This document shows, piece by piece, positions 7,268 through 29,837 of a DNA stretch of 64,000 bases. The notes under the pieces were generated by a model. The model worked only from the letters and a program-made list of their open reading frames with translations. It did no database searches and had not been told where the DNA came from. The DNA comes from Saprospiraceae bacterium. GTDB lineage: Bacteria; Bacteroidota; Bacteroidia; Chitinophagales; Saprospiraceae. The stretch covers positions 124,001 to 188,000 of the forward strand of contig JALHLK010000003.1 of the NCBI GenBank assembly GCA_022844565.1. The letters are read 5' to 3'. The translations under genes and the position numbers were made by a program. Every line of letters starts with the position of its first letter. Position 1 is the first letter of the stretch.

Positions 7268-7717
7268 TTACCCTACTAACAATTTTTTAACCACTGCTGA
7301 AATTGACTTTCCATCGGCCTTCCCTGCTAGTTTTTGATTAGCTGCTCCCATCACTTTTCCCATATCTTTTGCAGAAGTAGCACCGACTGTTTCAATGATT
7401 TCTTTGATAATTGGCTCCAATTCTGCTTCTGAAAGTTGAGTTGGCAAATACTTCATGATGATATTGATCTCTTCTTCTTCTACGACAGCTAAGTCAGCCC
7501 TATTTTGTTTTTGATAGATTTCTAAAGAATCTTGTCTTTGTTTTACCAATTTTTGTAACAATTTTACTTCTGCTGCCTCATCAAATTCGTTACCCGATCC
7601 ATCCGTTCTGAAAAGGAGGATAGCTGATTTGATTGCTCTGATGCCCCTTAATGCTGCTTGATCTTTAGCTTTCATGGCAGTTTTTAGGTCTTCTGTAATT
7701 TTAGCTTCTAAGCTCAT
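7268..7717 (-). CDS. GatB/YqeY domain protein
   Basis: This 149-aa protein is a stand-alone YqeY family member, related to the tail domain of the GatB amidotransferase subunit that grips tRNA. The family motifs are LKTAMKAKDQAALRGIRAIKSAI at the N-terminus, YLPTQLSEAEL in the middle and GATSAKDMGKVMGA followed by KADGKSISAVVKKLL at the end. The cellular role of free YqeY proteins is not well defined. Its start overlaps the rsmA stop by four bases (ATGA), so the two are translationally coupled. Confidence 0.93.
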   Translation of the reverse strand: MSLEAKITEDLKTAMKAKDQAALRGIRAIKSAILLFRTDGSGNEFDEAAEVKLLQKLVKQRQDSLEIYQKQNRADLAVVEEEEINIIMKYLPTQLSEAELEPIIKEIIETVGATSAKDMGKVMGAANQKLAGKADGKSISAVVKKLLVG

Positions 7718-8493
7718 TTTCTGATATTTTTTTCTAATTTATTAGTTAATAGTACAAATTCTTGATATGAAAGTTGCTCTGGTCTTTTGTTAAATTCTTC
7801 AGGATCGAGTATGGAAGGATCATCCACTAAAGGCTTTAACGTATTTCTTAGCATTTTTCTTCTAGAATTAAAGGAAGTTTTTACAATTGTTCTAAAAAGT
7901 CTTTCGTCACATCCTAAGGTAAAGTCTTCTTTTCTCTTTAATCTAATGACAGCAGAGTCAACCTTCGGAGGTGGATTAAACGCTCCTGGCGGTAGTTTTA
8001 GCAACATTTCACCTTCGTAATATGCTTGAGTTAATACACTGATTACCCCATATGTTTTGCTACCGGGTGGTGCAATAATCCTTTCTGCCATCTCTTTTTG
8101 AAACATCCCCACAATTTCAGGTACCAATTCCTTTTCGTGTATAGCCTTAAAAACTATTTGTGAAGAAATATTGTACGGAAAGTTGCCTATGATGTAAAAA
8201 GGTTCTCCTTCAAAAAGTTTATACAAATTAGCCTTAAGAAAATCCATTTCGATGATGCTTCCTGCGAAAGTTGGATAGTGCTTCGTTAAGTAAGTGACCA
8301 TATCTCTGTCTGCTTCAATCGCTCGAAGGTTGATGTCTTGCTTAAGTAAATACTTAGTCAGCATCCCTTTGCCTGGTCCAATTTCTAATACATTTTTGAT
8401 GCCTTCTGTGCGCAATAGGCTACTCGCAATTTTCAAAGCAGTATCTTCATTGGTCAAGAAATGTTGCCCGTAGGACTTTTTGGCCTTGATCAT
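7714..8493 (-). CDS. rsmA: 16S rRNA (adenine1518/1519-N6) dimethyltransferase
   Basis: RsmA (KsgA) dimethylates two adjacent adenines in the helix 45 loop of 16S rRNA late in 30S assembly. The protein begins with KKSYGQHFLTNE (the family's K-x-QHFL signature). It carries the SAM motif LEIGPGKG, the acidic residue in EADRDM, and the catalytic IGNFPYNISS (the NLPY motif with Leu to Phe). It then has FNPPPKVDSAVIRL and the all-helical C-terminal domain, giving a normal length of 259 aa. It is first in the operon, with a -7 box TACTTTTG on the reverse strand at 8514-8521. Confidence 0.97.
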   Translation of the reverse strand: MIKAKKSYGQHFLTNEDTALKIASSLLRTEGIKNVLEIGPGKGMLTKYLLKQDINLRAIEADRDMVTYLTKHYPTFAGSIIEMDFLKANLYKLFEGEPFYIIGNFPYNISSQIVFKAIHEKELVPEIVGMFQKEMAERIIAPPGSKTYGVISVLTQAYYEGEMLLKLPPGAFNPPPKVDSAVIRLKRKEDFTLGCDERLFRTIVKTSFNSRRKMLRNTLKPLVDDPSILDPEEFNKRPEQLSYQEFVLLTNKLEKNIRK

Positions 8494-8513
8494 ATTTGTA
8501 TAGTTCTGAAAGT

Positions 8514-8521
8514 CAAAAGTA
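8514..8521 (-). promoter_or_regulatory. -7 promoter element of rsmA operon
   Basis: The reverse strand reads TACTTTTG (TAnnTTTG), 21 bases upstream of the rsmA ATG. No -33 TTG was found. Confidence 0.45.
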
Positions 8522-8632
8522 GGGAAAAATTTTGGGAAATCATAATTTGGCCCGTACGAGTAGTTTTTTGAATAGGGTGGTATAGAAAAGTGAAGATAAC
8601 ATTAAGGTCAAATTATTTAAACTAAATACATC

Positions 8633-8663
8633 TTGCAAGAAAGTAATCATTATCGTACTTTTG
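8633..8663 (+). promoter_or_regulatory. aspS promoter
   Basis: TTG at 8633-8635, a 20-base spacer and TACTTTTG at 8656-8663 match the Bacteroidota promoter consensus well. Transcription would begin near 8670 and include about 210 bases before the aspS ATG. The whole fold-back element at 8678-8858 would therefore be transcribed in the leader. Confidence 0.6.
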
Positions 8664-8677
8664 CCCAAATTTTACAC

Positions 8678-8858
8678 AAGGGTGTTCTAAAAAATAGTTT
8701 TCGTTGTGAAAAAAGTACGAAATGACAAAGAACAAGGCAAATTATAAAAAGTACCGCAAGTGTAGCCTAAGCTACATTGAGGACACTTTTTATCATTTAA
8801 CGCTGTAATTTGTCATTGCAGTTTTTTGTAATAGAAATTGGTTTTTTTGAACTCCCTT
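8678..8858. repeat. Fold-back palindromic element A (in aspS leader)
   Basis: The ends AAGGGTGTTC and GAACTCCCTT are inverted repeats with one mismatch. Pairing continues inward: A-tracts against T-tracts, AAATGACAAA against TTTGTCATT, and TAAAAAGT against ACTTTTTA. The centre is TGTAGC-CTAA-GCTACA (8761-8776), whose midpoint (8768.5) is the midpoint of the element. It holds no ORF of note. It is either a MITE or a structured RNA leader, and no second copy of this sequence is in the window. Confidence 0.65.
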
Positions 8859-8880
8859 TCATACATTATAAATTTTCATC

Positions 8881-10650
8881 ATGTACAGATCACATAATTG
8901 TGGAGAACTTAGAATGGCTCACATTGGCCAAAAGGTAACTTTGAGTGGGTGGGTGCAAAAAGCACGCGACCTTGGAGGGCTTACGTTTTTAGACCTAAGA
9001 GATAGATATGGCATCACTCAAGCTGTATTTAATATGGATGAAAATGCAGAATTGTGTCTCGAGGCTCGTAAATTGGGGAGAGAGTTTGTAGTGCAAGTAG
9101 ATGGTATCGTAAGAGAAAGAAGTTCGAAAAATGCTAGTAGACCTACAGGTGATATCGAAATAGAAGTTTCTGCTCTCAAAGTATTGAATCAAGCAAAAAC
9201 GCCTCCTTTTACAATCGAGGATGATACAGATGGAGGAGATGACCTAAGAATGAAATATAGGTACTTGGATCTAAGACGGACACCTTTACAAAATAACATA
9301 CTTTTTAGATCAAAATTGGCATTAGAAACCCGAAAGTACTTAAATGAAAGTCAATTTGTAGAAATAGAAACACCTTTTCTAATCAAATCTACTCCTGAAG
9401 GGGCAAGAGACTTCGTAGTACCTTCTCGATTGAATCCAGGAGAGTTTTACGCATTACCTCAGTCGCCACAGACCTTTAAGCAAATATTAATGGTAGCTGG
9501 TTTGGATAGATATTTTCAAATTGTGAAGTGCTTTAGGGATGAAGATTTAAGAGCAGATAGACAGCCTGAGTTCACGCAGATCGACTGCGAAATGGCATTT
9601 GTCCATATCGAAGATATATTGAATACTTTTGAAGGGTTGGCTAAGCATTTGTTTCAGACCATGATTGGAAAAGACCTTGGTGATTTCCCACGGATGACAT
9701 ATGACGAGGCACTTTCTAAATATGGAAGTGATAAGCCAGACCTTAGATTTGATATGTCATTTGTAGAATTAAATGATGTGGCCAAAGGAAAAGGTTTTGG
9801 TGTGTTTGATAGTGCAGAGTTGGTAGTTGGTATTTGTGCTAAAGGAATAGCAGAGTCTTATTCCAATAAAGATCTTAAAGACTTGACAGAATGGGTACAA
9901 AGACCACAAATTGGTGCAAAAGGCCTCGTCTACGTAAAATATCAGAAAGATGGTATAAAGTCTACCGTTGGTAAATTCTATTCTGACGATGAGCTGAACG
10001 ATTGGGGTAAGTTATTTGGTGCCGAAGAAGGTGACATTCTTTTTATCTTAAGTGGTGATGCAGAAAAAACAAGAAAACAACTTAGCGAACTTAGATTAGA
10101 ATTGGGTCGAAAATTGGGCTTAATGAAAGCTGGTGATTTCAAACCACTATGGGTGATTAACTTCCCACTACTCGAATGGGATGAAGAAGCAGGACGTTTT
10201 CATGCTATGCACCACCCATTCACTTCTCCAAAGATCGAAGATATACCACGTATGCTAAATGGCGATCATGAGACGATGAAAAGCCTACGTGCTGATGCCT
10301 ACGACCTCGTAATCAATGGCTCCGAAATAGGTGGTGGTTCGATCAGAATCCACGATAGAGAATTGCAGTCTAAAAACTTTGACCTTCTTGGTTTTAGTAA
10401 AGAAGAAGCAGAAGCACAGTTTGGATTTTTATTAGGAGCGTTTGAATTTGGAGCACCTCCACATGGTGGTATTGCCTTCGGATTTGATAGATTGTGTGCA
10501 GTGATGAATGGTCAAAGTAGTATCAGAGACTTTATTGCCTTCCCTAAAAATAATATGGGTAGAGACATGATGATTGATGCACCTTCGGATATTCATGATG
10601 TTCAGATGAAGGAGTTGAATTTGAAGTCGACATACACTAAAGGTAATTAG
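8881..10650 (+). CDS. aspS: Aspartyl-tRNA synthetase
   Basis: This class II synthetase charges tRNA(Asp) with aspartate in the cytoplasm. It has an N-terminal OB-fold anticodon domain ([26 protein letters not shown]), then the catalytic core with the flipping-loop and motif 2 region ([29 protein letters not shown]). A bacterial GAD-type insertion lies at roughly residues 300-400, and motif 3 is [13 protein letters not shown] near the end. The length of 589 aa is normal for the bacterial form. Whether it is discriminating or also charges tRNA(Asn) depends on whether the genome has gatCAB and asnS, which cannot be seen here. Confidence 0.98.
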
Positions 10651-13379: not shown

Positions 13380-13542
13380 GTAACTATTCAGGTCTCCGCG
13401 TTCAAATCATAAAAATAAGGACATTTTAAGTCAGACAAGGCTCTTTTTCGAGTTAATAGCATCGCTATTGACGAAAAAAAAGCCGAGGGATCACTAAAAA
13501 TGGACATTTTTTGGTTGAACAGTCGGGGACCTGAATAGTTAC
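13380..13542. repeat. Fold-back palindromic element F
   Basis: The ends are the perfect 15-base inverted repeat GTAACTATTCAGGTC / GACCTGAATAGTTAC. Pairing continues inward with interruptions (GTTCAA/TTGAAC, AAGGCT/AAGCC, TTTTTCG/CGAAAAA). The centre is AATAGC-ATC-GCTATT (13455-13469), at the exact midpoint. Flanking octamers AGTATTTA (left) and AATATTTA (right) differ by one base and could be an aged target duplication. No ORF is present. It lies upstream of the Xre-RES promoter and downstream of the P1 peptidase gene. Confidence 0.7.
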
Positions 13543-21157: not shown

Positions 21158-21226
21158 ATCTTATATCTTGCAAATATATTCAAATAACGAGCAAATGACG
21201 ATTAACGTTTAAATAAACAAAGAAAC

Positions 21227-21391
21227 TAGTGTTTTGTTAAGTGTGTTGTGTCTGTTAAGTTGCAGATATTTTTACTTCAGACAAATTAAAAAAATATGAG
21301 CATAGCCATAGCTACGCAAATATTTTTTTAAGAAGTATGAATTAAAAAGATCAAAACTTGGGCAGGCTAAAACATGCTTAACATAACACTA
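21227..21391. repeat. Fold-back palindromic element D, copy 1
   Basis: It is flanked by TAGTGTTTTGTTAAG and (reverse complement) TAGTGTTATGTTAAG. Arms pair imperfectly over their length (TTAAAAAAATAT against ATATTTTTTTAA near the middle). The centre is TAGC-CATA-GCTA (21303-21314), at the midpoint. The core from AGTGTT to AACACT is 163 bp and has a near-identical copy at 27066-27228. This copy sits between porZ (start 21157) and DUF1080 (start 21422 or 21473). AACT flanks it on both sides of the 163-bp core, a possible but weak target duplication. Confidence 0.8.
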
Positions 21392-21472
21392 ACTTAAAAA
21401 ATTAAAAAATTATTTTGAAATATGATGATGAAGGTAGTACTTTGGTCTTTTGAAATTTTAAAGTCATTAGAT

Positions 21473-27064: not shown

Positions 27065-27229
27065 TAGTGTTATGTTAAGTATGTTGTGTCTGTTAAGTTG
27101 CAGATATTTTTACTTCAAACAAATTAAAAAAATATGAGCATAGCCTTAGCTACGCAAATATTTTTTTAAGAAGTATGAATTAAAAAGATCAAAACTTGGG
27201 CGGGCTAAAACATGCTTAAAATAACACTA
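27065..27229. repeat. Fold-back palindromic element D, copy 2
   Basis: It is nearly identical to the copy at 21227-21391, in the same orientation and of the same 163-bp core length. Only scattered single-base differences are visible, for example GCCTTAGC for GCCATAGC at the centre. Ends are TAGTGTTATGTTAAGTATGTT and its near-complement AACATGCTTAAAATAACACTA. It sits immediately upstream of the deacetylase start and downstream of yebC, so it could be in the deacetylase leader. Confidence 0.85.
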
Positions 27230-29427: not shown

Positions 29428-29626
29428 TATTAGACAATTTTTTAAATTGTATGGTTCTATTAATCAATGGTATATCTGCAATCATTGTGCCAAAATTAAA
29501 TTATTTAAAGAAATAATGTCATAAATAATTAACAATCAATGTAATAAAAATTATAATTATTTTTAAAGTGTTTATTTGGCCAATTTATTTATTGATGTAA
29601 TCTTGTGTCTTTTTGTACAAACAGCA

Positions 29627-29791
29627 CTAGTGCTCCGTCTAAATAAAAAATTAAATAATTTGTGGCTCTTTTTGAATATCTCTTCGTTAAAAAGCCTCGC
29701 TGAACTAGTCAGTTCAACTACGTTTTTCGCCTTGATCTATCCAAAAATAACTCACAACTTAATTTAAAAAATTAATTAGACGGAGCACTAG
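29627..29791. repeat. Fold-back palindromic element E
   Basis: The ends are the perfect 16-base inverted repeat CTAGTGCTCCGTCTAA / TTAGACGGAGCACTAG. The arms pair along most of their length (AAATTA/TAATTT, TTTGTG/CACAA, AAAAAG.CG/CG.TTTTT). The centre is TGAACT-AGTC-AGTTCA (29701-29716), at the exact midpoint. It is 165 bp long with no coding capacity. It lies 71 bases upstream of the Fe-S protein gene. Confidence 0.72.
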
Positions 29792-29837
29792 AGTTTACTT
29801 TTTAGACTAATTCCATAGATTTATCCATCATTTAATT

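Follow-up and report, generated by a model that had tools for sequence, protein, structure and literature searches.

A MITE-like palindromic element in the predicted aspS leader of a Saprospiraceae bacterium carries a hairpin tip found across phyla

Why is an aminoacyl-tRNA synthetase gene preceded by a long hairpin, and does that hairpin regulate the gene or merely lie in its path? The question arises at aspS of a Saprospiraceae bacterium, within a 64,000-nt stretch of one contig (hereafter the window). The gene encodes an aspartyl-tRNA synthetase of 589 aa (8881–10650, plus strand), and its start codon at 8881 agrees with the orthologue starts in relatives, the same start being used in congener orthologues of 84–85% identity. 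The upstream gene, rsmA, is divergently oriented (7714–8493, minus strand). A palindrome of 181 nt (8678–8858) separates the two, forming one long hairpin with the apex TGTAGC-CTAA-GCTACA at 8761–8776. The predicted RNA fold of 8633–8880 has a free energy of −59.5 kcal/mol compared with −40.5 ± 4.1 kcal/mol for shuffled sequences (z −4.7), and none of 200 shuffles was equally stable; the fold-back that a first-pass annotation had placed inside the aspS leader region is thus real. The copy contains 60 standard pairs, 3 G·U pairs, and 1 A·C pair, and lies in the conserved (sense) orientation relative to aspS. Its left terminal inverted repeat is GGGTGTTCTAAAAAATA (8680–8696, plus strand), its right repeat, read on the minus strand, is GGGAGTTCAAAAAAACC (8840–8856), and its conserved tip CCGCAAGTGTAGCCTAAGCTACATTGAGGA (8754–8783, plus strand) is built from CC, a GCA-GA internal loop, a stem with a conserved G·U, and the loop CNNA. 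Rfam returned no match at gathering score anywhere in the window.

The −7 promoter consensus of Bacteroidota is TAnnTTTG. Its sole occurrence within 8500–8880 is TACTTTTG (8656–8663, plus strand), the probable −7 box of aspS, possibly paired with a −33 TTG at 8633–8635 (plus strand). Among 30 relatives, 23 carry TAnnTTTG at most 90 nt from the aspS ATG, compared with 1 in control slices and a shuffled rate of 5% per sequence. The relatives' box mostly falls 19–25 nt before the ATG, and most of their aspS leaders measure only ~20–60 nt. In the window, 217 nt separate the box from the ATG and 14 nt separate it from the downstream hairpin element; with the element subtracted, the distance to the ATG would be 36 nt. 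Because the box is conserved in relatives and here displaced to just upstream of the element, the element most likely inserted directly downstream of the transcription start. The aspS mRNA is predicted to start near 8668–8672, which would place the hairpin ~10 nt from its 5′ end, and under this promoter model the whole hairpin is very probably transcribed as part of the mRNA. The 22 nt between the element and the ATG (8859–8880, plus strand), which stay unpaired with the element when the leader is folded in silico, would represent the remainder of the ancestral aspS 5′ UTR. Leader folds and the window scan gave no sign of an alternative structure or terminator in the leader. The first-pass annotation had likewise placed the full palindrome in the transcript ahead of aspS, which agrees with the position of the element between the probable promoter and the gene. 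It had also named a near-consensus promoter. A σ70-type site on the plus strand (8671–8698) is weak, and such sites are no more frequent than chance (2 found versus 1.9 expected); the Bacteroidota box is the better candidate.

To place the hairpin in its genomic setting, we searched the genome with 8640–8880 and obtained 46 matches, comprising 11 near-full-length copies of 177 bp (82–86% identity), 238-bp variant copies with a different core, and fragments. This family, F1, has ~35 dispersed copies in the genome and is bounded by GGGGAGTTCTAAAAACTC and its complement. The aspS copy is of the ~177-bp form and scores 161 bits with our covariance model R2, among whose sequences it was itself included. 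All 26 F1 copies examined are intergenic, and the insertion sites are A+T-rich. The gene context of 28 elements (two of family F5) is divergent for 12, tandem for 8, convergent for 7, and undetermined for 1. F1 siblings adjoin unrelated genes, several lying 20–50 nt before an ORF and others directly after one. Five congeneric genomes contain no copies of the family; a 30-base match in one congener (G001) lies inside a gene and was set aside as chance. The first-pass annotation had suggested checking whether near relatives lack the element upstream of aspS, and it is missing in 30 of 30. The nearest relatives are just 84–85% identical in AspS, and the exact empty site cannot be aligned.

The flanks of the family bear on how it moves. 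With GGGG..CCCC taken as the element ends, the flanks of 17 F1 copies are 82% identical at k = 4. Shuffling gave 44% on average and 68% at most, and neither k = 3 nor k = 5 showed a signal. For related Saprospirales elements, flank identity over 4 bp is 85%, and the match is exact for 16 of the 26 rows compared, in which most loci appear in both orientations. The element thus moved by a mechanism that duplicates 4 bp, and the duplication points to a DDE-type transposase acting in trans. A clear 4-bp duplication is not recognizable in the flanks of the aspS copy. That copy is 14–18% diverged from most full copies and shares 91% identity with one 238-bp copy over the latter's right half, a comparison suggesting that its divergence is at least partly that of its subfamily.

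Several copies depart from the standard form. In the 238-bp F1 variant (L020, L022, L026, L027, L112, L116), different small hairpins (e.g., ATCGTCGCAAACGAT and CTGGGGCCTCCGTGCACCAG / CTAGGGTCTCCGTGCCCTAG) take the place of the 5′ side of the tip and show what look like compensatory changes, and Saprospirales elements of 258–270 bp (L131, L190, L197) carry a comparable insert ahead of an intact tip. One F1 copy (L019, G000 C6:70423–70771) contains a further palindrome of ~170 bp, CCCAAATTGGTCATTAG..CTAATGACCAATTTGGG, nested close to its tip. At a contig end (L101:2500–2641, G000 C15), the F1 terminal repeat is followed by CTATTTCTAT and then by GTGTGCC..GGTGAAAGTCC, where the contig breaks; the latter segment resembles a group II intron at its 5′ end, which may have inserted into the hairpin.

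A fold scan detected five long palindromes in the window, including the aspS copy. The other four, of ~160–177 bp, represent at least three other arm families, and two of them share an ATAGCC-NN-AGCTAC tip. The palindrome at 13381–13541 (~161 bp, strand unassigned) has the same general build and a different tip, AATAGC-ATC-GCTATT. Two F5 copies lie on the plus strand at 21226–21392 (tip GCATAGCCATAGCTACGC, flanks CTAG/CTAA, 34.9 bits with R2) and 27065–27229 (30.0 bits), and a palindrome of a further family with CTAGTGCTCCGTC termini, like L258, occupies 29620–29796 on the minus strand. Across the genome, R2 gave 57 matches, including families with unrelated arms. As R2 assigns 30–60 bits to any palindrome of such length (41.8 bits on the minus strand of the window), we claim kinship only for palindromes with the tip. 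An earlier model, R1, consisted of 10 tip pairs only (the arms of different classes do not align) and was not used. The genome also holds family F2, with ends AACCCAGATTACGCATTGGAC and tip ATGCAGCCTTAGCTGCATAGAGGA, for which 89 terminal-repeat matches correspond to roughly 50 elements of ~176, ~240, and ~298 bp, and further families with CTAG-type flanks.

Genome G011, from another genus of the same bacterial family, harbors an amplified related element with different ends. We took the motif common to the elements of both genomes, RGYGTAGCCNNAGCTACRTYGAGGA, as a tip pattern and scanned 84,980 species genomes with it. The pattern was found at >109 places across about ten phyla, compared with ~0.1 expected under uniform base composition. 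By record title, the carriers include Saprospirales, Aquimarina, Phycisphaerae and other planctomycetes, Acidobacteria/Holophagae, Fermentibacteria, Desulfobacterales, Geobacter, Lysobacterales, Gemmatimonadetes, Nitrospirae, a myxobacterium, Selenomonas, and a clostridium; most are metagenome-assembled genomes (MAGs), and a lone occurrence may therefore reflect a contig binned in error. The sites occupy the apices of ~180-bp hairpins; for 65 of 72, the predicted fold is more stable than that of any control window from the same locus (mean −92 versus −60 kcal/mol). CC[GA]CAG directly 5′ of the scanned pattern is also conserved. Element length is near constant across phyla (mostly 171–187 bp), and arms and terminal repeats differ by lineage. 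Among 396 Bacteroidota genomes, the tip occurs only in that of the window (24 matches; 0 with the reversed-pattern control), a patchy distribution as for mobile DNA. A consensus DNA search of 399 order-level genomes scored only two candidates in each, and the low number of matches it gave should not be read as a prevalence. No tip match was present in the IMG/VR viral collection, and Rfam gave no match with E ≤ 1 at the elements in 8 loci. Tandem hairpin copies were seen in deltaproteobacterial, Lysobacterales, and Nitrospirae records (L201:1308–1620, with 148-bp spacing and shared arms; L156; L159; L169). An ORF, MKMSEKFKIEEEGKIFRRRSHSYVEERF, crosses the hairpin in three Saprospirales copies (L150, L153, L204); we abandoned the idea that the tip is coding, since by eye the frame is closed in planctomycete and G000 copies and is not open in other lineages.

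We then asked whether the pairing itself is maintained. We aligned 22 elements drawn from Bacteroidota, Planctomycetota, and Desulfobacterota. Both partners had changed in 47 of the 69 pairs, and the covariation score was 0.465 versus 0.192 for shuffled alignments and 0.07–0.16 (at most 0.161) with the structure slid, the structure having been derived from the same sequences. Of the 22 elements, 21 retain the G·U that forms the second pair of the apical stem. The first-pass annotation had named a lack of conserved pairing in related leaders as a refutation; such pairing is indeed lacking in the aspS leaders of relatives, but it is present in sibling elements. Homogenization of the arms could mimic covariation, yet it would favor neither strand. 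When arms were aligned by Watson–Crick identity only, isolated mismatches outside the tip numbered 71 G·T and 17 A·C, or 42 and 14 with one element per genome (p = 2 × 10⁻⁴), with the bias in the same direction in 18 genomes versus 4. This bias tells against homogenization, and the excess of G·U over A·C mismatches indicates selection on a single folded strand. At 69 of 72 sites, folding is more favorable for the motif strand than for its complement, and the favored strand is the one transcribed with aspS. From these sequence patterns we infer that tip and pairing are selected on one strand, which may act as RNA or single-stranded DNA alike.

The elements share several features of miniature inverted-repeat transposable elements (MITEs), being short (176–187 bp across phyla, with the 238-bp variant, against 70–300 bp for MITEs), multi-copy, devoid of a transposase gene, and equipped with terminal inverted repeats and a 4-bp target duplication. 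We consider it very likely that a non-autonomous, MITE-like palindromic element inserted between the aspS promoter and start codon, with spread and strand selection as proposed here. Spread would depend on a trans-acting, probably DDE-type transposase, as suggested by the 4-bp duplication, and the element's own propagation or tolerance would depend on the folded strand. The aspS hairpin is then probably the chance landing of one mobile-element copy, an ordinary insertion. The same terminal repeats, A+T-rich intergenic sites, and 4-bp duplication, as known in some IS families with CTAG/YTAR targets, could also describe an ordinary MITE, i.e., the internal deletion product of one insertion sequence whose cross-phylum tip is incidental. 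We regard this account as unlikely, since internal deletion predicts the reverse of an internal tip that is kept across phyla while terminal repeats change. The strand-specific mismatch bias also counts against it, and no IS with matching ends was found in the own and related genomes.

Two further explanations assign the hairpin a role at aspS. A mobile element domesticated to regulate the gene through its leader hairpin, by attenuation, RNase processing, or 5′-end protection, would suit the sense orientation, the inclusion of the entire hairpin in the predicted leader, and the retention of most pairs despite 14–18% divergence from most full copies. That divergence is, however, shared in large part by the subfamily, the insertion is unique to this genome, sibling copies stand beside many unrelated genes, and the leader offers no alternative structure or terminator, making domestication quite improbable. 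The proposal in the first-pass annotation thus survives in its mobile half, through the dispersed copies and the duplication, and is not supported in its domesticated half, with 0 of 30 relatives sharing the insertion. Its other proposal, a regulatory RNA on a synthetase gene, could draw on the placement before such a gene and the stable fold. A dedicated synthetase regulator is disfavored by the unrelated genes that neighbor the siblings and by the brevity of the relatives' leaders, and a conserved riboswitch- or T-box-like RNA of aspS is refuted by relatives' leaders that lack the element; with dozens of copies elsewhere and no Rfam match, we give that reading hardly any credence. For the preferred explanation, an ordinary insertion, an effect of the hairpin on aspS expression is possible; the most likely one would be modest and non-specific (RNase III-type cleavage or 5′-end protection), and ligand- or tRNA-dependent control would not be expected. 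Stable hairpins ahead of synthetase genes should not be taken by default for riboswitches or attenuators.

As a search for a mobilizing partner, we looked in the own and related genomes for autonomous IS bounded by F1, Saprospirales, or F2 terminal repeats, and found no pairs 0.7–3 kb apart on MAG contigs, which break at repeats and could hide a full-size partner. When genes near the elements were compared between genomes, nothing recurred except ABC-type ATPases and ORFs internal to the elements. A more far-reaching proposal, which we advance tentatively and rate somewhat below an even chance, is that the elements form a new superfamily, present in about ten phyla, and propagate through recognition of a fixed single-strand motif at the apex (CCGCAGGCGUAGCC-NN-AGCUACGUCGAGGA), with arms and terminal repeats free to turn over. 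The motif would be recognized, as RNA or single-stranded DNA, by a shared factor of host or mobile origin. If true, it would imply a previously undescribed transposition route via the folded strand, or a previously undescribed function of mobile-element RNA. In either case, the 25–30-nt motif offers a probe with which to capture a binding protein and to search for the mobilizing enzyme.

How do these elements compare with known systems? The literature covers ERIC, NEMIS, YPAL, RUP, and REP, along with RNase III and RNase E effects on some carrier transcripts. GGGG-starting termini of F1 suggested a Tn3-family TIME, an origin we rejected upon finding no PF01526 in 21 genomes (the own and 20 related) and a duplication of 4 bp rather than 5 bp. 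REPs measure 20–40 bp and carry an unpaired GTAG or CGTC tag, whereas F1 is ~180 bp with GTAG inside the apical stem. Transposition of the IS200/IS605 type yields no 4-bp duplication. REP/RAYT-associated TIRs are palindromic, occur in several phyla including Planctomycetes, and are in many cases probably transcribed (Di Nocera et al. 2013, PMC3733652). Neither GTAGC nor GAGGA appears as a string in the text of that paper. NEMIS/Correia elements of Neisseria are MITEs of ~107–155 bp with terminal repeats, cotranscribed and cut by RNase III (PMC2229807, PMC10969869). They differ in being genus-limited, with 24-bp terminal repeats and TA termini, and no cross-phylum tip is described for them in the literature consulted. 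In Geobacter metallireducens, "24 predicted short RNA elements" are intergenic and multicopy, with a central palindrome GRCGTAGCGCTGCTACGCC also present in Desulfotalea (Aklujkar et al. 2009, PMC2700814). Their apical loop differs from the tip reported here, and they may represent an early sighting of this superfamily. With this possible exception, a tip-like motif was absent from the palindromic-element literature searched.

The closest parallel is ERIC/IRU (RU-1) of Enterobacteriaceae and Vibrionaceae, likewise a non-autonomous intergenic palindrome that forms one long stem-loop once transcribed. ERIC is 127 bp long and intergenic, and its transposase is unknown (PMC2229807, PMC10969869). 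Its sense strand also folds better than the complement (−52.3 versus −38.2, computed here), and by eye the two share superficially similar short motifs (AAGGCG / AACGCAG). Membership in ERIC, suspected from these motifs, was rejected, as R2 scores ERIC at ~4 bits with filters off. ERIC ends in TATAC..GTATA, with TA termini (PMC2229807), and its tip CTTACATAAGTAAG lacks the GTAGCC/GAGGA motif, whereas F1 ends in GGGG..CCCC with a 4-bp duplication. Together, the elements are apparently an undescribed group of the ERIC-like palindromic MITE kind, set apart by their cross-phylum tip and strand-specific pairing. How ERIC-like palindromes move, and what part the folded strand plays, are the questions that the tip, the compensatory changes, and the G·U bias address.
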